Source of the DNA: a virus
Virus record (IMG/VR): IMGVR_UViG_3300034104_005052
Coordinates: 1-64,000 of that record
Direction: 5' to 3' (one strand)
DNA: 64,000 bases
A program made the position numbers and the translations under genes. This document shows positions 3,001 to 22,304 of the stretch, one piece after another. How positions within the stretch are numbered: the first letter of the stretch is position 1; every line of letters starts with the position of its first letter. The notes beneath the pieces are model-generated. The model did not search any database, had not been told where the DNA came from, and was given only the letters and a program-made list of their open reading frames with translations.

Positions 3001-6000
3001 AAATCGGACGCTTATATTACTGCTCGTATTGCATCCGGTACATTAACTGGTGTTGCTTCATTTGATCCTATATTCTTTGGTATTGGTGCTTCAGGACATG
3101 TTCTACTTGCTTCAGGATACCAAGTCACAGGTGATACAGTAGTTGCAGGATACGGTATCAATATTGTTGCTAGTAACAACCAAAAGACAATCAACAATAC
3201 GGGTGTCACTAGTTTCAATGGATTGACGGGGAATGTTACTTTAACTGGTGACTCAGGTGCAGTTCAAGGTAAAGGTAACAGTAGAATCACAGTTCGTCAA
3301 GCAACTAATTCTCTAACAGGTGTCGCTTCATTCAACTCAAGTTACTTCAGCGTATCAAATGGTGCAGTAAGTCTTTCAGGACCATTTCAAACTCCTGTAT
3401 TTGCAAATAGTACATCGGGATCGATTGAATCTTTATCTGTCCATTCAGGAAAAGCATTCATATCAACTCCAATCAGAACAAACTTGATCAAGCACAGTCA
3501 AGATTATGTTAGTGGGGTTTGGAATGTGTATTCGTCTGCTGTTGCTTCAAGTTTAGGTAATACAACTAATGGTTGGCCTAATGGTTCAACAGGTGGAATT
3601 CAAATTGCTTTTTCTGCTGTACCCAACGCCAACAACGGAATCTATCAAGTAATTCCAGATGTTGAAAATAATCAAGACTATACAGTTTCATGTTGGGCTA
3701 GATCAGATACAGGAGAAGGCAAAGCAAGATTTAGTTATTATGATGGCTCTACAAGTTATTTCTCTTCTGATTTCTTACTAAGCACCACTCCACAAAGAGT
3801 TTCATTTACATTTAGAACTAAATCAAGCGATGTTGGTTCAAATGTTGCTTTTGGTAATGGATCGGGTAATAGTGTAGGTACTGTTTACGCTTGGGGATTC
3901 CAACTTGAAAAGGGATCTGTTGCCACAAGTCCAATTCATAATGATACAGGATTATCAAAGAGTTCTGTTGCTGAAATAATTGCTATAGGTGATACTGCTC
4001 GTATTGCATCCGGTACATTAACTGGTGTTGCTTCATTTGATCCTATATTCTTTGGTATTGGTGCTTCAGGACATGTTCTACTTGCTTCAGGATACCAAGT
4101 CACAGGTGATACAGTAGTTGCAGGATACGGTATCAATATTGTTGCTAGTAACAACCAAAAGACAATCAACAACAGAGGTGTTACTAGTTTCAATGGTCTT
4201 ACTGGTAATGTCACTTTAACTGGTGACTCAGGTGCTGTTCAAGGTAAAGGCAACAATACGATTACTGCTCGTATTGCATCCGGTACATTAACTGGTGTTG
4301 CTTCATTTGATCCTATATTCTTTGGTATTGGTGCTTCAGGACATGTTTTACTTGCATCGGGATACCAAGTCACAGGTGATACAGTAGTTGCAGGATACGG
4401 TATCAATATTGTTGCTAGTAACAACCAAAAGACAATCAACAATACGGGTGTCACTAGTTTCAATGGTCTTACTGGTAGTGTCACTCTAACTGGTGATGGT
4501 GGTGTTATCATAGGTAAAGGTAACAATACGATTACTGCTCGTATTGCATCCGGTACATTAACAGGTGTTGCTTCGTTTGATCCTAGTCACTTTACAGTTG
4601 GTACTTCGGGACATGTAAGAAGTAAGGGTGTCATAACAATTAATAATCAGGCACCCGATGCAAATGGTAATTTTACAGTTGCATCTGCTACTGTTGTTAC
4701 AGGTGATGGTGGTGCAATTCAAGGAAAATCGGACGCTTATATTACAGCAAGAGTTGCAACAGAAAGTGTTACTGGAGTTGCATCTTTCAACAACAATTAT
4801 TTTACAGTTTCTGCTGGTGGTAGTGTTTCGATCATTGACCCTAAAATAAGTTTTGTGGATTCCGCTGGCCTAAGCACAGATATATACACTCTCGGTATTG
4901 GTGGTAATTACAGATCCATTAAGTTAAACGGTATCGATGGTGTTTCTGTTAAACTGGTGGAGGGCACACCAAATCCAATCAACGAATACACATTCAGAAA
5001 TACGGGTGTCACCAGTTTCAATGGTTTGACTGGTAATGTCACTTTAACTGGTGACGGTCAAGCGATTCAAGGTAAACTTAATAATACGATCACAGTTCGT
5101 GAAGCGTCAACATCGGTCACAGGTGTTGCTTCATTTAACTCAAGTCACTTCAGCGTATTAAATGGTGCAGTAAGTCTTAAGTCAGGAGTCACAGGCGATA
5201 CCGTAGTTGCAGGATACGGTATTGATGTTGTTGCTAGCAACAACCAAAAGACAATCAACAACAGAGGTGTTACTAGTTTCAATGGATTGACTGGTAATGT
5301 TACTTTAACTGGTGACGGTCAAGCGATTCAAGGTAAACTTAATAATACGATCACTGCTCGTATTGCATCCCATACATTAACAGGTGTTGCTTCGTTTGAT
5401 CCTAGTCACTTTGCAGTTGGTACTTCAGGGCATGTAAGAAGTAAAGGTGTCATAACAATTAATAATCAGGCACCCGATGCAAATGGTGATTTTACAGTTG
5501 CATCTTCAACAACTACAGTGAATGGTGTTACGGGAATTGGTTTTGGTAATGATATTGGTTTGACTGGAAAGATCAACCTGACTGCTGGTTCCAATTCAGG
5601 AATCTCAATCACTGGTGGCATAAATGACATTGGTGGTACTAATGTTCGTCAAGTAACTATTACAAACACAGGTATCACGGGGATTAGGTTTCTAACTGTA
5701 TTTGATGGAAACGATTCATATAAAACTGGTGCCATCACAATAACAGGATCTCAATACATATCGGTATCTTCCAATGATGGTACAACTATCGCAATAGTTA
5801 ATCAAGGTGTGTCCACACTTAACGGTCTCGTGGGTGCAAGAACTCTTACTGGCGACTCAGGTGCAGTTCAAGGTAGAGGCAACACTAGAATCACAGTTCG
5901 TGAAGCAACCGATTCTCTAACAGGTGTTGCTTCATTCAACTCAAATCACTTCAGCGTATTAAATGGTGCAGTAAGTCTTAAGTCAGGAGTCACTGGTGAT

Positions 6001-6990
6001 ACAGTTGTTGCAGGATACGGTATTGATGTTGTTGCTAGCAACAACCAAAAGACAATCAATAATAAAGGTGTTACTAGTTTCAATGGTCTTACAGGGAATG
6101 TTACTTTAACTGGTGATGGTCAGGCTATTCAAGGTAAACTTAATAATACGATAACCGCAAGAGTTCCAAATGATTGCGGAATTACCGGTGTCGTTGGTAT
6201 TAAATGCAGTAGTGGACTTGGTATCAATTCAGATGGTCTTATCTATCTTGACAGCGGGAGTCCTTGTATATCCTGCTTTGGTCTAGATGAATCTTTGTGT
6301 TTAGGACCAGATTGTGAATGGTGTGGAACTGAAAATCAATGCATTTGCCTAGGCCAATCTTGTGATGATATTATTGTTGGTCCTGGCCTGTTTCGAGCAA
6401 CAAATTCCGGTATGGGAGCATCTGCCAATTCAGATGGATCTTTGGCATATTTGTATTTGGATGTCAATAACCTTGCGACAATGGGTTCTACGATTGAATC
6501 AACAGATTCAGTTTTATTCTTCGATGCTAGTGAACCGGGTTTAATCAAAACCAAAAAGGCAAATGTTAGCAAGTTGATTTTGGATAATGACAACTTGTTT
6601 GAAAGTAAAACTCCAAGTCAACTCACAAGAAACACAAAATCATCAACAATAGAATTCTCTGTGGTTCTTGGTTCAATTGCACCCAATCAACAAGGATTGG
6701 TCAAGGGGGCTAGCGCACACGAATATATTGCACAAAACACGGTCAGATCCTTAAATGGAATGACAGGTGATCTTGAGTTCATGATTAATGGATGCACAGG
6801 TAGTGGAAGCGGAAAAATAACAATAACAGGAACTCAAAATGAAGTTAATGTTTCGACATCCTGTCCAACAATAGTCATAGGTCTTCCCGATAATGTAATG
6901 ATTCCTTATATTAGTGTTTCAGGAGCAACATTCACCGAAACCGTAAGTGCAAGTCTGTTTATTGGAAGTATCGTTGGAGGAACCTTCTAA
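1..6990 (+). CDS. Giant modular tail fibre / adhesin, 5'-truncated
   Basis: The frame is open from base 1 and the text before the first possible start (GTG at 19) still matches an internal motif (VITGG, seen again near residue 175), so the gene begins outside the window. More than 2,320 residues are visible. Most of the chain is a mosaic of short glycine-, threonine- and valine-rich modules: about 12 near-identical copies of TSFNGLTGNVTLTGD, about 12 of VTGDTVVAGYGI, and variants of LTGVASFDPSHF and GHVRSKGVITINNQAPD. Around residues 1120-1310 there is a single-copy, non-repetitive domain that looks like a phage carbohydrate-binding (CBM-like) module, with RTNLIKHSQD at its start and WGFQLEKG near its end. 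Residues 2055-2115 are cysteine-rich. No signal peptide or enzyme motif was seen. It is followed by two further adhesin-like genes. Role as a virion-attached fibre is inferred from composition and neighbours. Confidence 0.75.
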   Translation, partial: GVITGGVATDVVRTGNEIRIDNTGVVEFNGIVGGATLTGDSGAVQGKGNNRITVRIASDALTGVASFDPSHFTVGTSGHVRSKGVITINNQAPDANGNFEVASSTTTVNGVTGIGFGNDIGLTGKINLTAGSGISISQSSRTITFSNTGITGVRAKSNSAPDDFIHTGLLVITGGNAVSVLSTNTNQISIDLKSGYQVTGDTVVAGYGIDVVSSNNQKTINNRGVTSFNGLTGNVTLTGDGQAIQGKGNNTITARIATTALTGVASFDPSHFTVGSTGHVRSKGVITINGSSPDVDGNFTVASATVVTGDGGAIQGKSDAYITARIATTALTGVASFDPIFFGIGASGHVLLASGYQVTGDTVVAGYGINIVSSNNQKTINNRGVTSFNGLTGNVTLTGDGQAIQGKGNNTITVREATNSLTGVASFNSNHFSVVSGAVSLASGVTGDTVVAGYGIDVVADGKTKTINNRGVTSFNGLTGNVTLTGDSGAVQGKGNNRITVRIASDALTGVASFDPRFFGIGASGHVLLASAYQVTGDTVVAGDNITITRDGNSVTVNSNSASSTTIVNGVTGIGFGNDIGLTGKINLTAGSGISISQSSNTITFRGITSFYGLTGPTSGNFPKGISGAGQTGDRLLIATGPPADPFRNYIRFGNAWFQTGVVGTQSNNVRIASDALTGVASFDPRFFGIGASGHVLLASEYQVTGDTVVAGYGINIVSSNNQKTINNRGVTSFNGLTGNVTLTGDGQAIQGKGNNTITVREASTSVTGVASFNSSHFSVSNGAVSLKSEYQVTGDTVVAGYGINIVASNNQKTINNRGVTSFNGLTGNVTLTGDGQAVQGKLNNTITVREASTSVTGVASFNSNHFSVSNGAVSLKSEYQVTGDTVVAGYGIDVVASNNQKTINNRGVTSFNGLTGNVTLTGDSGAVQGKGNNRITVRIASDALTGVASFDPSHFAVGSTGHVRSKGVITINNQAPDANGDFTVASATVVTGDGGAIQGKSDAYITARIASGTLTGVASFDPIFFGIGASGHVLLASGYQVTGDTVVAGYGINIVASNNQKTINNTGVTSFNGLTGNVTLTGDSGAVQGKGNSRITVRQATNSLTGVASFNSSYFSVSNGAVSLSGPFQTPVFANSTSGSIESLSVHSGKAFISTPIRTNLIKHSQDYVSGVWNVYSSAVASSLGNTTNGWPNGSTGGIQIAFSAVPNANNGIYQVIPDVENNQDYTVSCWARSDTGEGKARFSYYDGSTSYFSSDFLLSTTPQRVSFTFRTKSSDVGSNVAFGNGSGNSVGTVYAWGFQLEKGSVATSPIHNDTGLSKSSVAEIIAIGDTARIASGTLTGVASFDPIFFGIGASGHVLLASGYQVTGDTVVAGYGINIVASNNQKTINNRGVTSFNGLTGNVTLTGDSGAVQGKGNNTITARIASGTLTGVASFDPIFFGIGASGHVLLASGYQVTGDTVVAGYGINIVASNNQKTINNTGVTSFNGLTGSVTLTGDGGVIIGKGNNTITARIASGTLTGVASFDPSHFTVGTSGHVRSKGVITINNQAPDANGNFTVASATVVTGDGGAIQGKSDAYITARVATESVTGVASFNNNYFTVSAGGSVSIIDPKISFVDSAGLSTDIYTLGIGGNYRSIKLNGIDGVSVKLVEGTPNPINEYTFRNTGVTSFNGLTGNVTLTGDGQAIQGKLNNTITVREASTSVTGVASFNSSHFSVLNGAVSLKSGVTGDTVVAGYGIDVVASNNQKTINNRGVTSFNGLTGNVTLTGDGQAIQGKLNNTITARIASHTLTGVASFDPSHFAVGTSGHVRSKGVITINNQAPDANGDFTVASSTTTVNGVTGIGFGNDIGLTGKINLTAGSNSGISITGGINDIGGTNVRQVTITNTGITGIRFLTVFDGNDSYKTGAITITGSQYISVSSNDGTTIAIVNQGVSTLNGLVGARTLTGDSGAVQGRGNTRITVREATDSLTGVASFNSNHFSVLNGAVSLKSGVTGDTVVAGYGIDVVASNNQKTINNKGVTSFNGLTGNVTLTGDGQAIQGKLNNTITARVPNDCGITGVVGIKCSSGLGINSDGLIYLDSGSPCISCFGLDESLCLGPDCEWCGTENQCICLGQSCDDIIVGPGLFRATNSGMGASANSDGSLAYLYLDVNNLATMGSTIESTDSVLFFDASEPGLIKTKKANVSKLILDNDNLFESKTPSQLTRNTKSSTIEFSVVLGSIAPNQQGLVKGASAHEYIAQNTVRSLNGMTGDLEFMINGCTGSGSGKITITGTQNEVNVSTSCPTIVIGLPDNVMIPYISVSGATFTETVSASLFIGSIVGGTF
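75..6160 (+). repeat. Interspersed near-identical coding repeats
   Basis: The DNA encoding the fibre modules is repeated almost base for base, for example ggatacggtatcaatattgt and ccaaaagacaatcaacaaca recur many times with only scattered synonymous changes. Copies are arranged in changing order rather than as one fixed tandem unit, as expected from repeated recombination or gene conversion among modules. Confidence 0.9.
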
Positions 6991-9917: not shown

Positions 9918-11879
9918 ATGTCTGACGAGATTCGACTGCCGACCGAGTACCAGCAATTTATTCATTTATCACGCTATTCAAGATGGCTTGAAAATAAGGG
10001 ACGAAGAGAAACTTGGGAAGAGACAGTCAATCGCTATTTCAACTTCTTCGATAAGCACCTTGCAATTTTTACTAAAGGAAAGTTGTCGAAGGCAGAGCGT
10101 GAAGAACTTCGTCAGGCAGTTCTTAACCTTGAGGTGCTTCCTTCAATGCGATGTCTCATGACAGCAGGTGAAGCCCTTGAACGAGACAACATTGCTGGAT
10201 ACAACTGTGCCTATGTTCACATCAATCGGGTTCGTGCATTCGATGAGATTCTCTATGTTCTCATGTGTGGTACGGGGGTTGGATTCTCTGTCGAGCGTCA
10301 GTTTGTTGAGAAGTTACCCACCATTGCCGAAGAGTTCAGCGATAGCGATACCCTCATCAATGTTGCCGATTCAAAGCAGGGTTGGGCAAAGGCTTTCCGT
10401 GAACTGATCAGTCTTCTCATCGTAGGTCAGATCCCCAAGTGGGATGTGTCAAAGGTTCGTCCTGCGGGTGCTCGACTGAAGACATTCGGTGGCAGAGCAT
10501 CTGGTCCTCGTCCACTTGAAGATCTATTCAAGTTCACCGTGGAGACTTTCCGAAAGTCTGCGGGTCGCAAGTTGACTTCAATCGAATGTCATGACATTGT
10601 TTGCAAGATCGCAGAGATCGTAGTTGTCGGGGGCGTTCGTCGCTCGGCACTCATTTCACTTTCAGAACTTGGCGATGAGCGAATGCGTAATGCCAAGAGC
10701 GGTGCTTGGTGGGAGGCAAATCCGCAACGGGCACTCGCAAACAATAGCGTTGCATACAAGGAAAAGCCTGAAATCGGAACTTTCATGCAGGAGTGGCTGT
10801 CTCTCTACAACAGCAAGAGTGGTGAGCGTGGTATCTTCAATAGAGCCGCAGCACAAAAGACTGTTTCAAAGTTAGGTGATCGTCGTGATCCTAACCATGA
10901 ATTTGGAACGAATCCCTGCTCTGAAATCATTCTTCGTGATCGTGAGTTCTGTAATCTTACGGAGATCATCATTCGTCCAACAGACACCGTAGAAGATCTT
11001 CTGAGAAAGGCTCGTATTGCTGCCATTCTAGGTACGATGCAAGCATCACTCACTAATTTCCAATATATTTCTTCTGAGTGGTCGAAGAATTGTAAGGAAG
11101 AAGCACTTCTTGGCGTTTCCATGACTGGTCAGTTGGACAACAAGATGATGCTTTCGATGTCTGATAATAGTGATCTTCTTTTGCCGTCTTCACTACCAAA
11201 TATTCTTGAGACCGTGAAGAACAAAACCATTGAAGTGAATGCAGAATGGGCAAAGAGACTTGGTATCAATCCCGCTGCTGCAATTACATGTGTCAAGCCT
11301 TCGGGAACTGTTTCTCAGTTGACTGATGCTGCTTCAGGAATGCACCCAAGACACAGTCAATACTACATTCGCACGGTTCGTGCAGACATCAAAGATCCCC
11401 TCTGTCAGATGATGCAGGAGGCAGGATTCCCTTCTGAGCCTTGCGTAATGCGTCCCGACCACACTAGAGTATTTTCATTCCCCATGAAGTCTCCTGATGG
11501 GTGTTTGACACGCAATGATCTAACTGCAATTGAACATCTGAATCTTTGGTTGACCTATCAGAGACATTGGTGTGAACATAAGCCGTCTATTACCATTACC
11601 GTTCGTGAACACGAATGGATGGATGTTGGTGCTTGGGTGTATGAACACTTTGATGAGGTGTCTGGAATTTCCTTCCTGCCCCACAGCGACCACTCATACA
11701 AGCAGGCTCCGTATCAAGATTGCACAAAGGAAGAATATGAAACCCTTTTGGCTCAAATGCCAAAGAATGTAAACTGGTCTGATCTCTCCAAGTATGAGAA
11801 GGAAGATAGAACGGCTGGATCTCAAACCTATGCTTGTTCAGGAGATAAATGTGAATTGGTGGATTTGACATCCTCATAA
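9918..11879 (+). CDS. Class II (adenosylcobalamin-dependent) ribonucleotide reductase
   Basis: The 653-residue enzyme reduces ribonucleotides to deoxyribonucleotides for phage DNA synthesis. It resembles the monomeric B12-dependent triphosphate reductases. The expected cysteines are present: Cys97 (GYNCAYVH), Cys334 and Cys345 (NPCSEIILRDREFCNL, 11 residues apart as the thiyl-radical and redox cysteines of the Lactobacillus enzyme are), and a C-terminal pair Cys640/Cys645 (CSGDKC). Asn332 and Glu336 complete the active-site loop. The substrate loop GTGVGFSVER and the motif VKPSGTVSQ are also seen. No small radical subunit gene lies nearby, which fits class II. No intein or intron is present. 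A Shine-Dalgarno sequence AAGGAG precedes the ATG. Dependence on cobalamin from the host is inferred. Confidence 0.9.
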   Translation: MSDEIRLPTEYQQFIHLSRYSRWLENKGRRETWEETVNRYFNFFDKHLAIFTKGKLSKAEREELRQAVLNLEVLPSMRCLMTAGEALERDNIAGYNCAYVHINRVRAFDEILYVLMCGTGVGFSVERQFVEKLPTIAEEFSDSDTLINVADSKQGWAKAFRELISLLIVGQIPKWDVSKVRPAGARLKTFGGRASGPRPLEDLFKFTVETFRKSAGRKLTSIECHDIVCKIAEIVVVGGVRRSALISLSELGDERMRNAKSGAWWEANPQRALANNSVAYKEKPEIGTFMQEWLSLYNSKSGERGIFNRAAAQKTVSKLGDRRDPNHEFGTNPCSEIILRDREFCNLTEIIIRPTDTVEDLLRKARIAAILGTMQASLTNFQYISSEWSKNCKEEALLGVSMTGQLDNKMMLSMSDNSDLLLPSSLPNILETVKNKTIEVNAEWAKRLGINPAAAITCVKPSGTVSQLTDAASGMHPRHSQYYIRTVRADIKDPLCQMMQEAGFPSEPCVMRPDHTRVFSFPMKSPDGCLTRNDLTAIEHLNLWLTYQRHWCEHKPSITITVREHEWMDVGAWVYEHFDEVSGISFLPHSDHSYKQAPYQDCTKEEYETLLAQMPKNVNWSDLSKYEKEDRTAGSQTYACSGDKCELVDLTSS

Positions 11880-11884
11880 TTCAG

Positions 11885-11892
11885 TATAAATA
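11885..11892 (+). promoter_or_regulatory. Late promoter, exact T4 consensus TATAAATA
   Basis: TATAAATA is identical to the T4 late promoter core and lies 14 nt before the ATG at 11907. The downstream gene has no clear Shine-Dalgarno sequence. Confidence 0.65.
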
Positions 11893-11906
11893 ATATCGGG
11901 TATATT

Positions 11907-12269
11907 ATGCAAACTCTTGCGATACAAGCACTTTGGTTAGGATTTATCCTTTACCTTCTCTACGAGACATCGGCAGTATATTCCTATATTTCATCTTGGC
12001 CGATGAGACTTTTTAAGAGGTGGAGTAAAATTCACCAATATGAAAAGACAGCAGCAGATTCAATCAGTTACTGTGATTGGATGCTGTCTCATCACAACAA
12101 ATCTTTCTTAGTTAAATTGTTGTCATGTAGATATTGCTTTGGGGTTTGGTTATCATTAGGTATCTGTATGATAACAAATTCACCTGAAAATATACCGATT
12201 GTGTATTTTGGTGGACAATTAATTTGCTCTTTGTTTGCATTCGCTGAAAGGAAAATGAGAGATGAATGA
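11907..12269 (+). CDS. Small membrane protein of unknown function
   Basis: The 120-residue product has a hydrophobic N-terminal segment (residues about 5-24) and a second one at about 85-112, separated by a basic, probably cytoplasmic loop. Between them is a CRYC motif (LLSCRYCFGVW) similar to the CxxC-in-membrane pattern of DUF1360-like proteins, but I cannot assign a family firmly. It overlaps the next gene by 8 nt and sits in a three-gene unit with an unknown protein and a metallopeptidase. The late promoter suggests late synthesis. Confidence 0.55.
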   Translation: MQTLAIQALWLGFILYLLYETSAVYSYISSWPMRLFKRWSKIHQYEKTAADSISYCDWMLSHHNKSFLVKLLSCRYCFGVWLSLGICMITNSPENIPIVYFGGQLICSLFAFAERKMRDE

Positions 12270-12561
12270 GATTATATTCGAAGGTCCGGATGATTTGTAC
12301 AATAAAATTGGCGACAAAGCGTTAGATGGTGAGGCACATAAACCTCTCATCAGTATCCATGCAACAATCAGAATGTTTAGAGATCCTAACACTTGCAGTT
12401 GCAAAAAGGGGAAAAAGGTTCAAGATAAAATCGTAGGCATGTACATGTCACTTCCGCCGTCGATTAGAATTGATCCTTTCCGTGAAAATATAAAAGCACT
12501 TTTTGACAACTCAGTTTTAATTTTTAAGATCAACGGCTTGGAGTTTGCACGGATAGAATAA
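12262..12561 (+). CDS. Hypothetical protein
   Basis: The 99-residue product is not recognised. It contains a short Cys-x-Cys basic patch (CSCKKGKK) near residue 45 and otherwise mixed alpha/beta composition, with no membrane segment or signal peptide. Its ATG overlaps the preceding gene by 8 nt and its stop overlaps the next ATG (TAATG), so it is clearly part of the same translated unit. Confidence 0.55.
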   Translation: MNEIIFEGPDDLYNKIGDKALDGEAHKPLISIHATIRMFRDPNTCSCKKGKKVQDKIVGMYMSLPPSIRIDPFRENIKALFDNSVLIFKINGLEFARIE

Positions 12562-13160
12562 TGGCATCTACGAACAATATATTTGTTAAGTTCGTTAGAG
12601 AGACACTTCGTGAGAATGGTCTTGAACTAAATCTAAAAAACACAAAATTCGTCAAAACCGATGGATCTATGTGTTGGGGGTTTTTTGACGAAAAGCAAAT
12701 ATGTGTAGCAAAAAATAATCCCCGATGGATTGAAGTTTTGGCTCATGAGTATTCCCATTTCATTCAATGGAAAAGGGGAACCGAATTATACAAAAAATGC
12801 TTTGGTCCGACTAACAACTATGCCGATGTTGTTGAGGATTGGCTTATTGGTAAAGATTTTGATAGTAGAAGAGTTAAAAAAGCATTTGAAACATATCGGT
12901 CTATGGAACGAGAATGTGAAAAGATTACTGTGAAGGTGATGCAGCGACACGGTATAAAATTTGATTTGGAGAGATATACTCAAGAATCGAACTGTCACAT
13001 TTACATGTACCATTACATGGAAAGAAGAAGAAAAAGTTCATTCAATAATGAGCCGACGAAAAACTGGAGAATCGTAAGGCAAATGCCTTCATCTTTCAGA
13101 GTTCAGTCGCATAAAACCCTACCAAAAGAAATAGATGCAGTAATGGATAGTCTATTGTGA
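12561..13160 (+). CDS. HExxH zinc metallopeptidase-like protein
   Basis: The 199-residue product has a zincin active-site helix at residues 57-70 (IEVLAHEYSHFIQW): His62 and His66 are candidate zinc ligands and Glu63 the catalytic base. A second helix at about 110-122 (ETYRSMERECEKI) offers a glutamate as third ligand, as in gluzincin-like SprT or DUF45-type proteins. There is no signal peptide, so it would act in the cytoplasm unless released at lysis. The C-terminus is basic. The substrate is unknown; capsid or tail processing, or a host target, are possible. It overlaps the preceding gene by one base. Confidence 0.6.
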   Translation: MASTNNIFVKFVRETLRENGLELNLKNTKFVKTDGSMCWGFFDEKQICVAKNNPRWIEVLAHEYSHFIQWKRGTELYKKCFGPTNNYADVVEDWLIGKDFDSRRVKKAFETYRSMERECEKITVKVMQRHGIKFDLERYTQESNCHIYMYHYMERRRKSSFNNEPTKNWRIVRQMPSSFRVQSHKTLPKEIDAVMDSLL

Positions 13161-13164
13161 GATA

Positions 13165-13171
13165 CTAAATA
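13165..13171 (+). promoter_or_regulatory. Putative late promoter CTAAATA, leaderless spacing
   Basis: CTAAATA ends exactly 7 nt before the ATG at 13179 and no Shine-Dalgarno sequence fits between them, so transcription would start at or next to the start codon. Confidence 0.55.
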
Positions 13172-13178
13172 GTAGGCT

Positions 13179-15935
13179 ATGGCTCACTATAGACTATTCA
13201 ATGCATATCCTTCTTTTGGATCCACTTTTACCGAAAATGATGTAGTACTGAATAACCCCATTCCGAATTACGGAATGATGGCTACACATTTGACCGACTA
13301 CTTCGAAAATCAAATGTCTGAAACTACGGTTTCTGGTACCGATTATCTGTCGGCATTTATTGCATCAAATAAGAGTCTGACGAGTATCGTTGAATCTGAC
13401 ATGACCGCAATGGCAAATGATGTCTCAATAGATTTTGGAATAACTTCATCTACTATTGGGTATGCTGCATTGGATTTCCGTGGAGAGTCATGGAAATATC
13501 TAATTGGCGATGGAATCATTGGACCGAGCAATATCAACAACACACCAGCATTTACTGAAACATTGAATGCTGCAACAAATATACTCAACTTCTTTAGAGG
13601 AAAATACCCTTCAATTAAATGGGCATTTGTTGGATTACCTCACCTTCCAAAGTACACATGCTTTGCTCCTACTGCTGGTTCGTCTTTTTCATGGGGTGAA
13701 GGTCTCACAAATAATCCGGGTACAACAAACAATCACTGGGACGCATCACATCCAACGGGGCCATCAGGCATGTCAGGGTCTTACGGTGATAGAATATTTG
13801 AATGGAACCATACTCCTAGTAATTTGGCTGCATTCTATAAATCAAGAGTCATCGAAAGAACAAGACCAATACTAGAGGCTTCTGGTTGGTTGTGCCCCGA
13901 CATTAATCCAGTTGGAACGGACAGTACGCAATTCGGATACTATGTCCATTCAATCTTTGCTCATAACTCATATACAACTGAGTTAATTAGAACTGCAAAA
14001 GAGTTTTCTCAATCTAGACTTGTGGATTGTAAAATTATTCCAGTGTTTAACAGTATGATGAGGTCTAGGGAAAGTCATGTGTTTGACGATCCATTTGGTC
14101 AATTCAAAATAAGACGAGAAACTGAACCTGGTGGACCAAATATAGACATTCAATATCTCGCAGGATTCTCAGGTGGGTCGGGCAGTTTATATGCATCCGA
14201 CATTGACTTGAGTCTCTCATTTTTAAGATCTGCCATGCTTGAGCCTGCCGCACTGAATGGAGCAGTAGGATTTATTTACGAGGATAACATTCCTCTTATG
14301 GTAAATTTTGCATGTACTGGATCAACATCACACACTGCTCAAGAAGAAGAGGCAATACTTAGAGCAAAAAATTTCATATCTAACACCGTCTATGATAGAA
14401 CCGATATATCTTTAATTCCTTGGACATCGGTTAAAAATGAAGTTCTAAGTGTATTATCTTACAAAATAACAGCAGCACAACTTAGAGTCATATCCGAATC
14501 AATTCCTATAGGAAACTCTTGGTCATTTGTGGACAACAGAATTCAAGTTCCAGATGGAGAAAGTGTTGATGTTTCAGAATATAGAAGTGTCTTCTGGAAA
14601 AGATGTAATGCAGGGGTATGCACCGATGCAGGAGAATCATCATTCCGAGAATATAGAGAATCAAATCCATTAATTGCTGAGTGTGATGGTTGTGGTCCCC
14701 CACCACCCGACTGCAATCGTGGTGCTTGTTGTTATGAAGAGGGTGGTGTAGGTTTTTGTGGGGATGACATATGTGAAGGTGATTGTGCTGGTAATTTTAT
14801 TCCACTGAGTTCAAATGTATGCGGAGCAGGAGTTCCAATCACATGTGCAAATCTCGGTGGTGCTGGTGTGGGAGAAGCAGCACCATGTTCAGAAGTAGGA
14901 TTTGAAAACCGTTGTTGGACAGATATCATAGGACCACCACCTCCACCTGATCCGTGTTGTGTTGCACAAGGTCTAGATCCAGAAAAACCTTGCGTTGAAG
15001 TTAAGATTTGTTCTTATGACTGCACATTCTGCGACAATATTGATCGAGACTGTGATGGAATTCCAGATGCACCAAACGGTTGCGCCTCGCCTCCTCTTCC
15101 ACCAGGTACTATAGAAGAGACAACAAAAGAAAGAACATGTAGAAAGTACCGAATTGCGGCAGGAGCATGTTGCTGTGTAGATTGTACAGGATTTCCTGGC
15201 GATACTCCTGGACTTGATAGAGATCCTCCGCAGTGTAGTGAAGGTCCAGCAGGAGGTCCACCAAACGGTCAATTTGGAACATTTGGTGGAATAGCAGGAG
15301 CAATTCGTTGTGGTCAAAACGATACCTCAACTTTACCGCTTGCTCCTGGTGGTTTTCAGTTTTGCCACGATCCTGCTCAACCTTGGCTCGACAAAGATGG
15401 TTGTCTGAAACCATGTGAAAACTTTGCATCGGTTTCAAATGATCTATGTGAATGTTGTGCAGAAAGATCTCCGAGTGGATATGAAAATCCCGATGGCACA
15501 CGATGTTGTAATACTGACTCAGGACTCAGTTTTTTATGCCCTAGAGATAACTGTTTTCAACCATGTGTAAATGGTGGAGGAACAGAGTTAGACTGGCAAA
15601 CAATTACTGAATCTTTATTTCAAAGTTTGTCTTTAGAACAGCAAAAATTAGTTGCAGAAGACATCTATAATTTCAATCTATATGGACATTTAGATGCAGA
15701 GACAAAACTAATTGTTGAAAACATAGCAAAGAGAACTAGGAGATTTGGATTATCAACTATGAGAGATAGAGGCCAAGTGATGAACACTATTTCTCTTTAT
15801 GAAGATATTACCAATCCAAGGAAAAACACAGTTCTTAATCTAAAGAATAATTACTTACCTTCAGTCGAAACAGTCAATAGAATCAAATCGGAGTTTGCAT
15901 TTGACAGATTCTTATTGCCAATCTCATATAAGTAA
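13179..15935 (+). CDS. Large cysteine-rich virion-like protein
   Basis: The 918-residue product has three parts. Residues 1-480 are soluble alpha/beta with blocks such as YAALDFRGESW and KWAFVGLPHLPKY that could be a TIM-barrel glycoside-hydrolase-like fold, though no catalytic pair can be named. Residues about 490-800 are very cysteine-rich, with proline stretches (GPPPPP), a GACCY motif like the GACC modules of planctomycete secreted proteins, and an Asp-rich DRDCDGIPD loop like thrombospondin-type calcium repeats. Residues 800-918 are helical and basic without cysteines. Many cysteines suggest disulfides or metal binding in a particle exposed outside the cell. A virion or fibre-linked role is inferred from size, late promoter and neighbours. 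Confidence 0.55.
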   Translation: MAHYRLFNAYPSFGSTFTENDVVLNNPIPNYGMMATHLTDYFENQMSETTVSGTDYLSAFIASNKSLTSIVESDMTAMANDVSIDFGITSSTIGYAALDFRGESWKYLIGDGIIGPSNINNTPAFTETLNAATNILNFFRGKYPSIKWAFVGLPHLPKYTCFAPTAGSSFSWGEGLTNNPGTTNNHWDASHPTGPSGMSGSYGDRIFEWNHTPSNLAAFYKSRVIERTRPILEASGWLCPDINPVGTDSTQFGYYVHSIFAHNSYTTELIRTAKEFSQSRLVDCKIIPVFNSMMRSRESHVFDDPFGQFKIRRETEPGGPNIDIQYLAGFSGGSGSLYASDIDLSLSFLRSAMLEPAALNGAVGFIYEDNIPLMVNFACTGSTSHTAQEEEAILRAKNFISNTVYDRTDISLIPWTSVKNEVLSVLSYKITAAQLRVISESIPIGNSWSFVDNRIQVPDGESVDVSEYRSVFWKRCNAGVCTDAGESSFREYRESNPLIAECDGCGPPPPDCNRGACCYEEGGVGFCGDDICEGDCAGNFIPLSSNVCGAGVPITCANLGGAGVGEAAPCSEVGFENRCWTDIIGPPPPPDPCCVAQGLDPEKPCVEVKICSYDCTFCDNIDRDCDGIPDAPNGCASPPLPPGTIEETTKERTCRKYRIAAGACCCVDCTGFPGDTPGLDRDPPQCSEGPAGGPPNGQFGTFGGIAGAIRCGQNDTSTLPLAPGGFQFCHDPAQPWLDKDGCLKPCENFASVSNDLCECCAERSPSGYENPDGTRCCNTDSGLSFLCPRDNCFQPCVNGGGTELDWQTITESLFQSLSLEQQKLVAEDIYNFNLYGHLDAETKLIVENIAKRTRRFGLSTMRDRGQVMNTISLYEDITNPRKNTVLNLKNNYLPSVETVNRIKSEFAFDRFLLPISYK

Positions 15936-15953
15936 TACAGAAAGGAGAAAGCC

Positions 15954-16067
15954 ATGTCAGAATTTCTAGGTACAACTTGGTGGAGTGTCCTCATGTTTAT
16001 TGCTGGTGCTTTGATCGGTGCGCCACTTTGGAAGTGGGTATCGTCAAAAATGCCTTGGAACAATTGA
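15954..16067 (+). CDS. 37-residue single-pass membrane protein
   Basis: ATG at 15954 follows a strong Shine-Dalgarno sequence (AAAGGAG) and encodes 37 residues with one hydrophobic helix (residues about 9-26, TWWSVLMFIAGALIGAPL) and a short basic tail (KWVSSKMPW). I recall short proteins of similar composition in marine T4-like phages, but the function is unknown. It is followed by a rho-independent terminator. Its strong ribosome site and tight fit between the large gene and the terminator argue that it is real. Confidence 0.6.
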   Translation: MSEFLGTTWWSVLMFIAGALIGAPLWKWVSSKMPWNN

Positions 16068-16091
16068 GTTCCTTAAAATAATAAACGGACC

Positions 16092-16118
16092 AACGGGGGG
16101 AGAAATCCCCCCGTTTTC
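16092..16118 (+). terminator. Rho-independent terminator
   Basis: A 9 bp stem (AACGGGGGG at 16092-16100 with CCCCCCGTT at 16107-16115), loop AGAAAT, then TTTTC. It ends the unit that includes the 918-aa and 37-aa proteins. Confidence 0.85.
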
Positions 16119-16135
16119 AATAGTATCTTCGTGAA

Positions 16136-16142
16136 CTAAATA
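16136..16142 (+). promoter_or_regulatory. Putative late promoter CTAAATA, leaderless spacing
   Basis: CTAAATA follows the terminator and ends exactly 7 nt before the ATG at 16150, leaving no room for a Shine-Dalgarno sequence. Confidence 0.55.
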
Positions 16143-16149
16143 GATTGAA

Positions 16150-16353
16150 ATGCCAAAACTTTATACAGATCTTCTCAAATCCCTTGAAGAGTGGGTTGCA
16201 CACACCGCAAGGGTATCATCACGACTTAGCACCCGCACAGACCTCTCCATTAAGGCTAAGAAGCCGAGCGTGATACAACCGACACAAGTTCCCTTCTCCA
16301 AGAAAGAGAAGGCTCGTAGGGGCATACACGGCTTCCAGATAGGAGAAAAATAA
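16150..16353 (+). CDS. Small basic hypothetical protein
   Basis: The 67-residue product is rich in Lys, Arg and Ser, has a helical start (LYTDLLKSLEEWVAHTARV) and a basic tail, and matches no family I recognise. Support for it being real comes from position: it begins 7 nt after a late promoter motif, and its TAA overlaps the ATG of the 1276-aa gene, whose Shine-Dalgarno sequence (AGGAG) lies inside it. Confidence 0.5.
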   Translation: MPKLYTDLLKSLEEWVAHTARVSSRLSTRTDLSIKAKKPSVIQPTQVPFSKKEKARRGIHGFQIGEK

Positions 16354-19300
16354 TGGCTTTTCATGGATCTCAAGGGTTTTTTAGATTTAAAGGTGCTACA
16401 TCCATACCGCAAAAAGAGGTTGGAATATCGGGGGATTCAAGATACACAAGAGAATTTTTAGATCGTGAACCCATCACCATACATGCGCCATTTAATTTAA
16501 CGAGTACATTCAAAAGAGGAGATACCCCTTTTGGATTTTCTTTGCCATTCTCATATATTCAAGATGAGTGGGATACAGTACCTGGAATTCCTAATGATTT
16601 CTACAACCTAAAGTTTTCTCCAGATTTGGTGTGGAACACATATGCATCCTTACAGGAAAATGGTGATCATGTTTTTATGGAGGAAAAAGATGGTTACATT
16701 TATATTTTGAGAAATGTAGTTCTTGCTGGTCTTACTCAAGAAAATGCTGGAATACCTGTCGTATATGATGATGAAATTGGATCTTTTTTGTCGGTTCCAT
16801 ATCTTTGGGGATCCGTCATAGAGGGAATTCACAGTGGAGCAAGAAGATTTATTGTTGGCCCCACGAAGAAATTTGTATCTAATCCCTTTTATGGAGAATA
16901 TGACTCAACATCATTAGATATTTTGGGAGATTATGGTGATATTGCTTGTGCTGGCACTGGAGATTTTGCAGCAGGGCAAATGCTTTTGGTTATGCCTGAA
17001 TATGGAACGACTGGAGTATATGATGAATCTAGACACAACATATTCAATTACTCAGCAGATGTTCGGGTTGTATCAGGAAATTCCACTCCACTGAATTCCA
17101 ATTTCCTACCACAAACTCCTTTCTCAACCGAGAATATTGATTACTCTGGATTTAGACTTAGAGACAGAAAAAAACTTCCAGTTCCATATTTTGCAGCAGA
17201 TGAAGAATCGCTAATCTCAATGGTGAATGGTACTACTGTTGAACCAGATAGAACAGTTTACGGAACAAGTGGTAATCCCCAAACCCCACCATTCATTTCA
17301 TTTGTCAGTTGGAAATACACAGGTTTTAATGCAAATCCCACAAGAAGACATGCATTTGCAATCACAAAAAGACACTTGCTGTCTTTATCTACGCCATTTC
17401 ATAACTATGCATACTCACCCGATAATCCATATGCAAAAGATCCATTTGGATTTGCTAATGCAGTTACAGGTTTTGTACCATTTACTGACCACCAACCTGG
17501 CGACAAAGTATATTTCTATGACAAAAACGAAAATCGTGTCATAGAAAGAACTGTGGTCGCAACACTCCCTTTCGATGTTAAAACTGTACACGAAACCTTA
17601 AATAAGATAGTAAGCGGTGCATACCCGAGACTTGAATCAACTTGGACAAATGTATATATTGAAAACTGTGTAATTTATACGGATCCAGCAGGAGTAACTT
17701 ATAATACCCCCTGCTACGAATACACACAACTGGAAGAGGGATACAATACGGAAATTGCTTTTGGGAATTATGATTATGTAGTAAACTATGAAGGGTCTCC
17801 TATCGGAGGGACAGGAGATATATCTGAGTTCGACTCAGGAAGCGAATTCGAAGATAAATGGCTAAAAACATATCCAGAAATAACAGGCACAGAAAGCAGT
17901 CTTGAATATGCGGAGATGTTTAGTAGGATTAGAGATAAGTTTGTGCAAAATGCTTTGTACAAAGATAATTTTAGCGGATTCGATGAAAAGTCATTTGGAC
18001 CTACATCTTTCTTCGAAGTTGTACCTTTCAACTATAACTTAGGAATTGAAACTGGTGGTGTAACATCCACCACTGGAGTAGGGTGGTTTGATTCTCTAAT
18101 GCCTCAAAACTATCCGATTAGAAATATGGTTGGAGGTTTACCGATAAACCTCTACACTCTCAATAATCCATCTGAAACTAACCCACTTGCACTGCAAAAA
18201 AGTTTAGGTAATAAGTTTCAAGAATCTGTTGCATTCGAAGACTCAATCACTGATGTGAATCCGACAAGAGAAAATATAAGATCCTCGCAAGCAAATCAAA
18301 ATATTGGTGTTGTTGGATATTCGGCTGAACAATCACTTGAAGAATCCGATCCTGAACCAGAAAATCCAACAGGATCCATACCTCGGATGGAAGTCGATTC
18401 CACTCTGCCAAATTCAACAATAGATGAACAATTTTACTATTTACCAACAGCAGCAAGAAATGCGATCAGAGAATATTTTCCGCATGGTTTAAACAATATA
18501 TTCTACGGAAGTTTCAATGCTAATGATAAATTTAGGAGACTTTTGACATGGGAATATCTAACTAGTCATTTTAAGGGACTAATAGATGGAAAGTGCAGCA
18601 TTCATTTATTGGATCAAGATCTTCCTGATGGTGTAAGACCAATATCTCTGTTAGATGTAAGAAGATCTGAATTACATAAACATGAGATGTTTGTTGATGA
18701 CCAAATGAGGGGATTTATTGCAAAAAATTGCCCACCACAAACTACATTCTTTCCACTTCAATATTTTGGTAATGTTGCGATTGCCGGATGTCGAAGAGAA
18801 TATGGAACTATAAATTTCGCAAGAACATATGCAAATCCTTATGGTGAATCCATGCTCAATATGCTGTTATTTAGAGTGGGAAGATGCGGGGATAATATAT
18901 CTAATGTTCTAGACGATTGTGGAGAAACCGGAAACTCATCGTCGGGACCAGAATGTAAATGGGGAGTTTTCCAACTTAGTGTTGGATCTAATTTCCCAAT
19001 ACTTAGCAACGACGGAAATGATCGTGGGCTGATGTTCCCTGATGTAACTACTCAGACTAATTGTTATGATTGTTGGTATAACGGAAATGATACGATTGAG
19101 CGGTCTTTGCCGATAAATGCAAAAAACGAAGACAAATTAAATGATCTGACTATTACAAAATCCTCTTGGGGCGGTCAAGATTTACCAGGCCCACTTTTCA
19201 CATATGGTAAAAGTGGATCTCCAATACTTTCTAGAATAGTAACACAAAGTTTATATGGGTCTTCAGATTTTGATTATCGGTATCTTTATGATTATGTTGT

Positions 19301-20183
19301 AACGGGACACAAAGGAGATGATATACAGGTTGGGGATGCTATATTCCAAAACTTTGCGGGAGGAACTGGAATATGCTCGTATCCCTTTGACAGTACATTT
19401 GGTTTTGTTTTTGCATACTCTAAAGATACAGGAAGACTTTTACTTTCCAGTAGAACATCTCACCCCGTTCTTTCATCTGATATTTTAATCAGATGTGATG
19501 AAACTTTGAGACCAGTGGGTGCAACATACGGAACTACATCTGGATATGTTCAAGGCACTTTGGGATTCCAATCTTGTGAAGAAATATCTCCATCAACTAG
19601 TGCTGGTGGATGGAAATTCAATCATTACTTAGGTAGACCAGGATATGGGTATACAAAGAAATCATCAGGGCTACCATATCCAAATGACACCGAAGTTGCG
19701 TCTTGGATGAGTATTGAAAGAGGCGGACCAAGAGTGCTTGGAAACTTTTGGTGGTATGGTCTTTGGTATGAAGGATTCCCACAATCAAGAATACAGAATA
19801 GTAAAAAAGATGATTGTACATTTGCAGAAATAGAAGACCCTGTAGCATCAAGCAACGAATTGTATCTTGGAACTCATAATATGGGGATGTTCTTATCTGA
19901 TCAACCAATCTACTATAGATCAGCAGATCCCGATGATCCGAATAAATACTATTACTTCGGTAAAGTGGAAGATATTTTTTACAGAATGTTGAATGATTTT
20001 AATGATGAAAACGGTGTGACGGGGGACTATAGATGCACAAAGGAAATCATCAAATTTGATGGTGAATCCGATGCATACAATTATCCAAATTCCATAAGAG
20101 TTCCAGTATTGAAGTCTCAACACCCATCGCTAACAAGAATTTATGCTGGTGTTAACATAAAAGAGACAGAGTTCTTAAAGTGA
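16353..20183 (+). CDS. Very large hypothetical virion-like protein (1276 aa)
   Basis: The 1276-residue product has no motif I recognise. It is rich in aromatic residues, Gly, Asp and Asn, has no membrane segment or coiled coil, and few cysteines outside residues about 845-915. Composition is that of a beta-rich structural protein. The first 100 residues contain many Phe/Gly pairs (FHGSQGFFRFKG). It is translationally coupled to the preceding small gene (TAATG) and followed by a separate promoter, so it shares a two-gene late unit. A tail- or fibre-associated role is an inference from size, composition and predicted late expression. Confidence 0.5.
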   Translation: MAFHGSQGFFRFKGATSIPQKEVGISGDSRYTREFLDREPITIHAPFNLTSTFKRGDTPFGFSLPFSYIQDEWDTVPGIPNDFYNLKFSPDLVWNTYASLQENGDHVFMEEKDGYIYILRNVVLAGLTQENAGIPVVYDDEIGSFLSVPYLWGSVIEGIHSGARRFIVGPTKKFVSNPFYGEYDSTSLDILGDYGDIACAGTGDFAAGQMLLVMPEYGTTGVYDESRHNIFNYSADVRVVSGNSTPLNSNFLPQTPFSTENIDYSGFRLRDRKKLPVPYFAADEESLISMVNGTTVEPDRTVYGTSGNPQTPPFISFVSWKYTGFNANPTRRHAFAITKRHLLSLSTPFHNYAYSPDNPYAKDPFGFANAVTGFVPFTDHQPGDKVYFYDKNENRVIERTVVATLPFDVKTVHETLNKIVSGAYPRLESTWTNVYIENCVIYTDPAGVTYNTPCYEYTQLEEGYNTEIAFGNYDYVVNYEGSPIGGTGDISEFDSGSEFEDKWLKTYPEITGTESSLEYAEMFSRIRDKFVQNALYKDNFSGFDEKSFGPTSFFEVVPFNYNLGIETGGVTSTTGVGWFDSLMPQNYPIRNMVGGLPINLYTLNNPSETNPLALQKSLGNKFQESVAFEDSITDVNPTRENIRSSQANQNIGVVGYSAEQSLEESDPEPENPTGSIPRMEVDSTLPNSTIDEQFYYLPTAARNAIREYFPHGLNNIFYGSFNANDKFRRLLTWEYLTSHFKGLIDGKCSIHLLDQDLPDGVRPISLLDVRRSELHKHEMFVDDQMRGFIAKNCPPQTTFFPLQYFGNVAIAGCRREYGTINFARTYANPYGESMLNMLLFRVGRCGDNISNVLDDCGETGNSSSGPECKWGVFQLSVGSNFPILSNDGNDRGLMFPDVTTQTNCYDCWYNGNDTIERSLPINAKNEDKLNDLTITKSSWGGQDLPGPLFTYGKSGSPILSRIVTQSLYGSSDFDYRYLYDYVVTGHKGDDIQVGDAIFQNFAGGTGICSYPFDSTFGFVFAYSKDTGRLLLSSRTSHPVLSSDILIRCDETLRPVGATYGTTSGYVQGTLGFQSCEEISPSTSAGGWKFNHYLGRPGYGYTKKSSGLPYPNDTEVASWMSIERGGPRVLGNFWWYGLWYEGFPQSRIQNSKKDDCTFAEIEDPVASSNELYLGTHNMGMFLSDQPIYYRSADPDDPNKYYYFGKVEDIFYRMLNDFNDENGVTGDYRCTKEIIKFDGESDAYNYPNSIRVPVLKSQHPSLTRIYAGVNIKETEFLK

Positions 20184-20185
20184 TC

Positions 20186-20192
20186 CTAAATA
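20186..20192 (+). promoter_or_regulatory. Putative late promoter motif CTAAATA
   Basis: CTAAATA lies 20 nt before the ATG at 20213, with a Shine-Dalgarno sequence (CAGGAG) in between. Confidence 0.5.
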
Positions 20193-20212
20193 AAGCCACA
20201 GGAGATTATGCT

Positions 20213-20521
20213 ATGGACAATGTTAAATTAATTAGAATGGTTTCGGGTGAAGAAGTGATTGCTAAGGTGCTTGATGAAACTCAAGATGGTGGACTTGTTC
20301 TCAAGAACCCATGCATTCTGCTTCCTGCTGGTCAGGGTAGACTTGCCCTAGTTCCTTGGATGCCTTATGCGGAAACAGAAAACATGGAAGTTCCGTCTAA
20401 GGTGGTTGCTTTCCAAGTCACTCCCAAGATTGATTTGGTCAACGAATACAACACGATGAACAGCGGTCTCATCGTTCCTGACAAGAGTGTTGCATCACCG
20501 AAACTGACTTTGGTCGAGTAA
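20213..20521 (+). CDS. Sm-like (LSm/Hfq-fold) small protein 1
   Basis: The 102-residue product (MDNVKLIRMVSGEEVIAKV) looks like the Sm-like beta-barrel proteins of marine T4-like phages: a short first strand, a conserved SGEEVIAKV turn and strand, a bent strand with the acceptable-loss pattern LKNPCIL, and a hydrophobic WMPYAE segment. The start is set by CAGGAG upstream of ATG 20213; an in-frame ATG at 20180 would lie in front of the promoter motif. A second protein of the same design lies at 24151-24516. RNA binding is suggested by the fold, not shown. It is followed by two hairpins. Confidence 0.55.
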   Translation: MDNVKLIRMVSGEEVIAKVLDETQDGGLVLKNPCILLPAGQGRLALVPWMPYAETENMEVPSKVVAFQVTPKIDLVNEYNTMNSGLIVPDKSVASPKLTLVE

Positions 20522-20535
20522 TCTGGCCGTCTAAT

Positions 20536-20597
20536 AAGGACAGATTTCGCAGAATCTGTCCTTCTGAGAAGGACACCTTTTGGGTGTCCTTTTCTAT
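20536..20597 (+). terminator. Double hairpin terminator between convergent genes
   Basis: First stem AAGGACAGATT (20536-20546) with AATCTGTCCTT (20553-20563); second stem AAGGACACC (20569-20577) with GGTGTCCTT (20583-20591), followed by TTTCTATTT. The second has the T-rich tail of a rho-independent terminator for the + strand. It also sits just downstream of gp46 on the - strand. Confidence 0.75.
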
Positions 20598-22304
20598 TTA
20601 CGACATCTTACTGTAATTGCCCTTCTTGGATAGTTGAACATGTCGCTCAAACTTATCTTGAAGAACTTCCTTGGATTTGTGGCTGATGACAAAAACATTT
20701 ACATTGTGACCACGCATGCCATTCATGATCTCCAAGAACGCTTCTGTTGATGTATCGTCTAGCGATCCATCTAAAACCTCATCTAGAATCAGTAAGTTAG
20801 TGGAGAGTGAGTTCTTGATCTCTGCCATGGCTCTCCAAGCAAACAGAAGTGCCAGATCGATCTTCCGCTTCTCACCTTCGCTGAAAGAAGCATATGTGAA
20901 TACATCACGGTGTCGAGACTTGATGGTTTCGTTGAATTCATCGTCAAGATTAAAGTTGACGAAGAAATTCATCATACTCAAATACTTGTTGATCGTTCTA
21001 TTGATGACTGGAATATAATGCTTGATAATTTTTTTCTTGATTCCACCATCTTTCAGCAGGATAGACGCAAGGCCCAAGTAATGATTGTCCTCTACAAGTT
21101 CTCTCTTTGAATCAAGTACTTCTGATTCTTCACTTTCAAGACGAGACAGTTCTTTTTCGTCTTGAATCAACTTTGTGGTGTTCCCCCCACGCCCACGAAC
21201 TTTACCAATATAATCATTAAGAGAATCGATATCAGATGTTTTCTTATGGATTAATGACTGAAGTGCAGAAATCTCCAACAGAACATCTGTAATTGTGTTC
21301 AGTCTATCATCGACCTCTTTATACTTGATCATCAATTCCGAAAGACCATCATTTAAATCTTGAGACTTCTTACCCTTTGATTGTACAGTTGTCTTCTTAA
21401 ACTCTTCATCGATTGACTGTGAGCATGTCGGACACTTGTTATTACTTTCATAGAATTGAATCTCTTTCTTGAGAGAAGAGATCTTCTTTTCAATCGTACC
21501 TTTCAAAACAATGCATTCCTCACGCTTCTTGGAGATTAAATCTTTATCCGCTACACTTTCGAACATAGTTTCGATGGTTTTAGTCATCGATTCGATTTCT
21601 TTTCGGTGTTTCTCAATCTCTACATTTGTACGATCAATTTCCTGTGTTTCCCACTCTTTATCTGATAGAGTTCTTTTTCTTTCGTCTTCGATGATCTTTC
21701 TTTGGTTCTTGACCCTCTCCTTAGCAATAGCCAACTGTGTGTCGATCTGCACCGACTCTTCCTTGATCTGGCTGGTTCTTTCCTTGAGAAGGGTATTCAT
21801 CACGGAGAACACTCCGATGTCTAGAATCGACTCTACGACCGCTCTACGCTCTGCTGCGGGTAATCGCATGAATGGGATATAATTGGCAGAACCTAGTATA
21901 ACTACCTGACAAAAAGACTTATAAGACATGTGGAGAATCTGTTCCTCTAGAATCTTTTGTCCATCCCGTGCTTTTGCTTCTTGATCTAGGAGTTTATCGT
22001 CTTTCCAAATCTCAAAGATCTTGGGTGACTGCCCACGAACGATTTTGTATTCGTTCTTTTCATCCGAGAACTCCAATTCAACAACACAATCTTTTTCATT
22101 GACTGAGTTAGTTAACTGTGGTAAGTTGATATTTCTGTATGGCTTATTGAAAAGAGCAAATGTCAAAGCGTCGAGCAAAGTACTCTTACCTGAACCATTC
22201 TCACCGCTGATTAGGGTTGTTGATGCATCTGTTAGAGATAGTTCTGTGAAATTATTTCCTGTGCTTAGAAAGTTCTTCCACCGAATTTTCTTGAAAGTAA
22301 TCAT
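20598..22304 (-). CDS. 46: Recombination endonuclease subunit gp46 (SbcC/Rad50-like)
   Basis: The 568-residue ATPase is the T4 gp46 homologue, partner of the gp47 nuclease in processing DNA ends for recombination-dependent replication. Walker A is GENGSGKS (residues 34-41), a coiled coil spans about 180-440 and is interrupted by a zinc-hook CPTC, the ABC signature is SEGEKRK, and Walker B is LLILDE. Length is close to T4 gp46 (560). Its ATG overlaps the stop of gp47 by 4 nt, so the two are coupled, as in T4 relatives. Confidence 0.95.
   Translation of the reverse strand: MITFKKIRWKNFLSTGNNFTELSLTDASTTLISGENGSGKSTLLDALTFALFNKPYRNINLPQLTNSVNEKDCVVELEFSDEKNEYKIVRGQSPKIFEIWKDDKLLDQEAKARDGQKILEEQILHMSYKSFCQVVILGSANYIPFMRLPAAERRAVVESILDIGVFSVMNTLLKERTSQIKEESVQIDTQLAIAKERVKNQRKIIEDERKRTLSDKEWETQEIDRTNVEIEKHRKEIESMTKTIETMFESVADKDLISKKREECIVLKGTIEKKISSLKKEIQFYESNNKCPTCSQSIDEEFKKTTVQSKGKKSQDLNDGLSELMIKYKEVDDRLNTITDVLLEISALQSLIHKKTSDIDSLNDYIGKVRGRGGNTTKLIQDEKELSRLESEESEVLDSKRELVEDNHYLGLASILLKDGGIKKKIIKHYIPVINRTINKYLSMMNFFVNFNLDDEFNETIKSRHRDVFTYASFSEGEKRKIDLALLFAWRAMAEIKNSLSTNLLILDEVLDGSLDDTSTEAFLEIMNGMRGHNVNVFVISHKSKEVLQDKFERHVQLSKKGNYSKMS

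Follow-up and report, generated by a model that had tools for sequence, protein, structure and literature searches.

Phage depolymerases carried on tail spikes and tail fibres usually combine an N-terminal anchor with a trimeric beta-helix. Among the glycan enzymes that help phages to pass the host capsule are the PL16 (HylP type) hyaluronate lyases, which the available sections of one article describe as trimeric triple-stranded beta-helix lyases (PMC11669647). In the accessible parts of two articles, GH56 hyaluronidases, which use a Glu/Asp catalytic pair, are attributed to animals and venoms, and the hyaluronidases of phages are classed as PL16 lyases (PMC12254123, PMC11669647). The literature on GH56 retrieved with phage terms reports no phage GH56 in its accessible parts. 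For disulfides in virions, a crAss-like phage provides a precedent (PMC10172136); the bonds described in the available part of that article are few and join subunits.

Here we describe a 918-amino-acid (aa) protein encoded in a window of 64,000 nucleotides, taken from a 72,068-bp IMG/VR record. The phage is T4-like: T4-type PHROGs match several proteins of its baseplate and tail, and, among the matches listed, its gp6-like protein is nearest to those of pelagiphage HTVC008M and Methylophilales phages (34–37% identity). We suggest that the 918-aa protein is a disulfide-hardened, glycan-directed accessory of the virion of T4-like phages, encoded by an optional late gene, a reading that we regard as evenly poised between right and wrong. 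Similar to tail-spike and tail-fibre depolymerases, the protein is accessory, variable, late and probably directed at the host surface, but it has the enzyme-like part at its N-terminus, and it matched none of these families. It differs from the PL16 enzymes in its barrel model and in the lack of a PHROG match, and from the crAss-like phage in that up to 20 bonds are possible within one stalk. Three parts can be distinguished in the protein, namely an N-terminal domain (N-domain) modelled as a barrel, a cysteine-rich stalk and a C-terminal domain, as follows.

13179 to 15935, plus strand: the 918-aa open reading frame (ORF), with an ATG start and homologues in 13 IMG/VR contigs
13179 to 14470, plus strand (about aa 1–430): N-domain, a GH56-hyaluronidase-like beta/alpha barrel as judged from conservation, the model of a homologue and a fold search
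14604 to 15566, plus strand (aa 476–796): cysteine-rich stalk, with 40 Cys, polyproline hinges and GACC at aa 515 and aa 662
15042 to 15068, plus strand (aa 622–630): DRDCDGIPD, calcium-loop-like and present as a single copy
15579 to 15932, plus strand (about aa 801–918): C-terminal domain without Cys, a candidate docking or assembly part

No family in Pfam, PHROGs or NCBIfam was assigned to the window protein, and Pfam and PHROGs returned no convincing family for ten members of its own family. Profiles of PL16 hyaluronate lyases and beta-helix tail spikes in Pfam and PHROGs were unmatched by the window protein, and none was convincing in the ten members. Across 50,697 cultured-phage records, tblastn found no match for the whole protein or for its cysteine-rich part, and the other two parts gave only E-values of 2 to 4. 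A direct scan of viral contigs with the single 918-aa protein yielded no relative, and the BFVD viral models yielded no match at E ≤ 0.001. Homologues were reached by using the neighbouring ribonucleotide reductase (RNR) as bait, which led to a homologue in 9 of the 50 records searched, these records being those of the loci retrieved up to that stage with RNR or with the 1,276-aa protein encoded nearby as queries. Profile scans of viral contigs with three different parts of the N-domain returned 13, 13 and 12 loci on the same 13 contigs. By the patterns tried, the family therefore comprises these 13 contigs, all from uncultured phages, and the window. It falls into group A (the window, L004, L005, L007 and L006, the last cut off at the contig end) and group B (L014, L012, L016, L015, L008, L097, L099, L104 and L105), and similarity between the groups is confined to the N-domain, at about 30%.

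The gene occupies a variable site that is bounded by two conserved genes.

9918 to 11879, plus strand: B12-type RNR, the conserved near flank of the variable site
12561 to 13160, plus strand: upstream neighbour, a HEYSH metallopeptidase-like protein (weak match to DUF6782, E = 0.012)
13165 to 13172, plus strand: late-promoter-like CTAAATAG, before the 918-aa gene
15954 to 16067, plus strand: 37-aa ORF with a hydrophobic stretch, kept in L002 and L003, in which the site is empty
16353 to 20183, plus strand: 1,276-aa partner in the same optional stretch, absent from L002
20598 to 22304, minus strand: gp46-like recombination protein, the conserved far flank of the variable site

Half of the RNR-to-gp46 loci compared (8 of 16) carry a gene with the N-domain and the other eight do not; these 16 were drawn from 80 RNR loci, with the 64 that lack a gp46 match (short or rearranged, and including the empty-site L003) omitted. 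The interval between RNR and gp46 spans 8.3–8.9 kb in group A, 4.3–4.4 kb in group B and 0.85–2.1 kb where the gene is missing. The metallopeptidase-like neighbour is kept in relatives without the 918-aa gene. For example, L002 retains this neighbour and the 37-aa ORF and has 46 nt in place of the 918-aa gene, and the same 46-nt site is found in L003. The gene is thus optional and is not needed for virion building. Where it is present, it diverges far faster than the genes that flank it: between the window and L007, RNR is 99.7% and gp46 96% identical, versus 43% for the 918-aa protein and 35% for the 1,276-aa protein. By analogy, such rapid change would resemble that of host-surface tools. 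Its presence or absence between near-identical phages also provides a natural experiment on host range. The stretch from 9918 to 22304 as a whole is an RNR–gp46 hotspot of optional genes in T4-like phages, with 0.85 to 8.9 kb of cargo across 16 loci. The 1,276-aa protein in this stretch matches no Pfam or PHROGs family, and its GKSGSP motif hints at a protease-like fold.

The original prediction of an enzyme-like N-domain is made likelier by structural modelling. Using a 14-sequence alignment with the homologue L012 placed first, we obtained a model of L012 (pTM 0.68, mean pLDDT 60) in which strands and helices alternate; a 10-sequence alignment with the window protein first gave a low-confidence model (pLDDT 40, pTM 0.29). 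When the L012 model was compared with the PDB, Foldseek placed six GH56 hyaluronidase chains at ranks 1–6 (E = 2.9e-5 to 1.1e-3; next match, 5.5e-3). The same GH56 chains took ranks 1–6 in VIA-align, with Z scores of 17.4–13.9 over about 250 residues and rmsd values of 3.9–5.0 (next fold, Z = 10.8). The GH56 hyaluronidases (human HYAL1, 2PE4; PH-20, 9JUB; bee venom, 1FCQ; wasp Ves v 2, 2ATM) are the best fold match of the N-domain by both programs, and the (beta/alpha)7 barrel of GH56 is recognizable with moderate confidence in the model of L012. The resemblance had been noted from motifs before the fold search was run: similar-looking barrel-strand motifs occur in the same order, and the Asp of the GH56 DxE motif is kept in the phage family when the two are aligned by eye.

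Sequence profiles gave no such similarity. HHalign scored the N-domain profile against HYAL1 at 15.9, which compares with a mean of 15.4 and a maximum of 23.0 for shuffles and is no better than the scores of 85 E. coli ORFs (maximum, 20.6); there was no HHalign signal against HYAL1 or PH-20. None of 10 family records matched PF01630 at E ≤ 10, and GH56 was absent from an hmmscan of 10 members. A PDB sequence search with the N-domain returned only noise (E = 0.78 and E = 2), and the same search with its profile returned nothing. Because HHalign gave no signal, it is only the fold that carries the likeness to GH56.

Across the 14 members, the N-domain has invariant D99, D111, D188, D241, D303, D369 and R297, as well as six invariant Trp residues; R101 is nearly invariant (Arg in 13 of 14, Gln in L097). 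In an alignment made by eye on the motifs, D-[LF]-R-G (D-L-Q in L097) occupies the place of the GH56 D-x-E. The catalytic pair of HYAL1 is D129/E131. The phage proteins keep the Asp (D99), and the Glu position is taken by Arg in 13 of the 14 and by Gln in the remaining one. The GH56 acid Glu131 therefore appears to be lost in the phage family, and GH56-type activity may be lost with it. Given this apparent loss and the null results with HHalign and PF01630, we regard the N-domain as modelled as GH56-like in fold and not as a GH56 member. It is further set apart from GH56 in being phage-borne and fused to a cysteine-rich stalk and a C-terminal domain.

The model places three Asp residues, invariant in 14 of 14 members, at or adjoining the C-terminal ends of barrel strands 95–100, 241–243 and 363–365; they are D100, D245 and D366 in the numbering of the L012 model, and D99, D241 and D369 in the window protein. 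The three strand-end Asp residues form a possible active site in the model, and catalysis by the N-domain is our guess. An active glycosidase of a new family, in which a GH56 barrel with a rebuilt, Asp-based site is displayed on a stalk whose disulfides, as many as 20, do not lock until after lysis, seems unlikely to us. If it were true, animal hyaluronidases and the phage family would both have branched from a single older fold, and the stalk would be a virion part triggered by oxidation. A phage branch would shed light on how the fold arose and give glycan enzymes a new scaffold. Alternatively, the barrel may be catalytically dead and serve as a lectin-like receptor-binding head, so that the phage adsorbs without cutting, a possibility that we consider real but doubtful. 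Consistent with this, the motif alignment has Arg or Gln in place of the GH56 acid Glu in all 14 members, the six Trp are invariant, and phages that are otherwise nearly identical have diverged fast in this protein, as is typical of receptor binding. However, the three Asp at or adjoining strand ends and Arg297, all of them invariant, look like an active site that has been kept, and proteins that only bind rarely retain this number of polar residues when their identity is as low as about 30%.

The 44 cysteines of the 918-aa protein are unevenly distributed, with 4 in aa 1–475, 40 in aa 476–796 and 0 in aa 797–918. The other 41 ORFs used in the window contain 170 Cys in 18,665 aa, and no 321-aa stretch of them has more than 12. 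Measured against the Cys content of these ORFs, 40 Cys in 321 aa has a binomial probability of about 3e-32, which together with the maximum of 12 elsewhere excludes chance as the source of the cluster. The original prediction was thus correct in describing dozens of cysteines in about 300 residues with few in the flanks, and the sequence elements that it named are all present: GACC and DRDCDGIPD at the positions given above, and polyproline hinges as runs of Pro at aa 507–510 and aa 586–590.

Its description of a calcium-loop region is not supported by comparison with relatives. Thrombospondin type 3 proteins have tandem DxDxDG loops with conserved Cys, whereas the window protein has one DRDCDG, which the close relatives of full length (L004, L005 and L007) lack at this position; a DSDGD stretch occurs elsewhere in L005 and L007. 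Gene exchange with planctomycetes, with its hint of the host, is likewise unsupported. Under this explanation the cysteine-rich modules came from planctomycetes or bacteria like them and mark the host or community, which we now think highly improbable. GACC does occur twice in the window protein, but the first site is GVCC in L004, L005 and L007, and the second is VCCC in L005 and L007. Nor is there an array of repeats: an all-against-all blastp of the proteins encoded in the window detected no internal repeat in the 918-aa protein, which is therefore not an array of one module, and the two GACC sites do not amount to repeated modules with fixed spacing. The cysteine-rich part had no significant match in phages or in plasmids (best plasmid E = 3, with matches at E = 3–4). 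With the patterns tried, the genome collection yielded no N-domain: none of 60 pattern matches to its profile was confirmed as a bacterial relative. A PDB sequence search with the cysteine-rich part matched 4-amino-4-deoxychorismate lyase (E = 0.0078), which we attributed to composition.

To compare members, Cys were counted after residue 445, leaving out L006, which is cut off at the contig end. Group A has 40 (window), 40 (L004), 36 (L005) and 36 (L007); in group B, L014, L012, L008, L015, L099, L104 and L105 have 20 each, L016 has 18 and L097 has 12. The count in the rich part is even in 13 of 13 homologues, compared with 7 of 13 for the N-domains, which fits full disulfide pairing. The 13 counts are not independent, as several members are close relatives (we roughly estimate that nine may count as independent), and a simple probability of 2^-13 would thus be too strong. 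This part of the protein diverges fast in both sequence and Cys number; 29 Cys columns are common to the window protein, L004, L005 and L007. Some losses involve two cysteines at once: C548 and C570 are jointly absent from L005 and L007, and a C..C pair of L012 is jointly absent from L016, L099 and L015. Vicinal CC pairs are many and CxxC pairs are few. We infer that the stalk cysteines are disulfide-bonded, with up to 20 bonds.

A scaffold loaded with zinc or another metal, which would be stable in the reducing cytoplasm, could also explain the cysteine-rich part. It would account for counts divisible by 4, as seen in 12 of the 13 members, and would suit a protein that is made in a reducing cytoplasm and has no export signal as judged by hydropathy. 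The 18 Cys of L016, the many CC and few CxxC pairs, and losses of Cys in twos and not in fours all argue against such a scaffold, which we judge quite improbable; L016 and the losses in twos favour disulfides over metal.

Each group has its own C-terminal domain, and no similarity was detectable between those of groups A and B (HHalign score of 12.7, reached by 17 of 100 column shuffles). The arrangement in L097 (L097:5992–8973) is different. There, the N-domain protein is shortened, with a short 12-Cys tail and without the C-terminal domain, and it is the next in-frame ORF, of 412 aa from its ATG and with a GDSGSP motif, that carries the C-terminal domain of group B. This assignment has an hmmsearch E-value of 1e-29 with a model that included that same sequence, and blastp gave 28–34% identity to other members (best E = 1.8e-11). 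The domain can therefore be exchanged between neighbouring proteins. A trypsin-like fold for this ORF, considered on account of GDSGSP, was unsupported by Pfam and by a PDB sequence search, and the ORF has no match to the 1,276-aa protein.

We infer that the 918-aa protein is located on the virion, that it docks by its C-terminal part and that its target is a glycan. It might otherwise be a non-virion late protein that is freed at lysis and acts in the medium, for example by clearing capsule or slime, although we hold this to be unlikely. The position of the gene between RNR and gp46, outside the tail operon, and the optional nature of the gene would be expected of a free protein. Against this, tail-spike and repeat-protein genes are located 5–13 kb upstream, and the conserved C-terminal domain, found on another protein in L097, suggests docking. 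The protein at window positions 19–6990 is 2,323 aa long, has many diverged internal repeats and adjoins a tail-spike-like gene; one ORF of L004 shows many separate matches to it.

The CTAAATAG motif occurs seven times in the window, at positions 6987, 13165, 16136, 48613, 56056, 60598 and 61862, always on the plus strand and each time shortly before an ATG. Four of the seven copies are 5–60 nt from the start of a listed ORF (p of about 4e-6), and the motif precedes the tail-spike-like gene and a baseplate wedge gene, among others. The late core of T4 is TATAAATA, to which [CA]TAAATA is close, and all 14 homologue genes have [CA]TAAATA within 60 nt upstream (CTAAATA in 11 and ATAAATA in 3). 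Judging from these positions, CTAAATAG is likely to be the late promoter of the window phage. Simple hydropathy found no signal peptide or membrane span in any member (maximum 19-aa value, 1.61). With no export signal, the disulfides should form mainly after lysis. A virion appendage that oxidizes after release, as originally proposed, is made likelier by the lack of an export signal, the motif upstream of 14 of 14 genes and the parity of the Cys counts, even in all 13 homologues counted.

For a disulfide-hardened virion accessory, we envisage the following course. The protein would be expressed from an optional late gene in the variable site between RNR and gp46, made in the cytoplasm and docked on the virion, presumably by its C-terminal part. 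Oxidation of the stalk cysteines would follow after lysis. The barrel would then be held out by the stalk as a head that resists proteases and seawater and that would bind, and probably cleave, a host-surface or extracellular polysaccharide. An even number of cysteines, maintained over fast-changing sequence, may serve as a simple and checkable mark of a part of the virion that might harden once it is released.

Other cysteine-rich proteins are encoded by the window phage and its relatives. A 279-aa protein with 12 Cys (4.3%) and without a Pfam match is encoded amid the baseplate genes of the window (47718–48557). In related phages, a second, unrelated-looking group of proteins is encoded upstream of RNR (L008:7507–9879, L018:1905–3659, L009:8179–9906 and L017:8150–9904); its members have 32–43 Cys, located at the N-terminal end.
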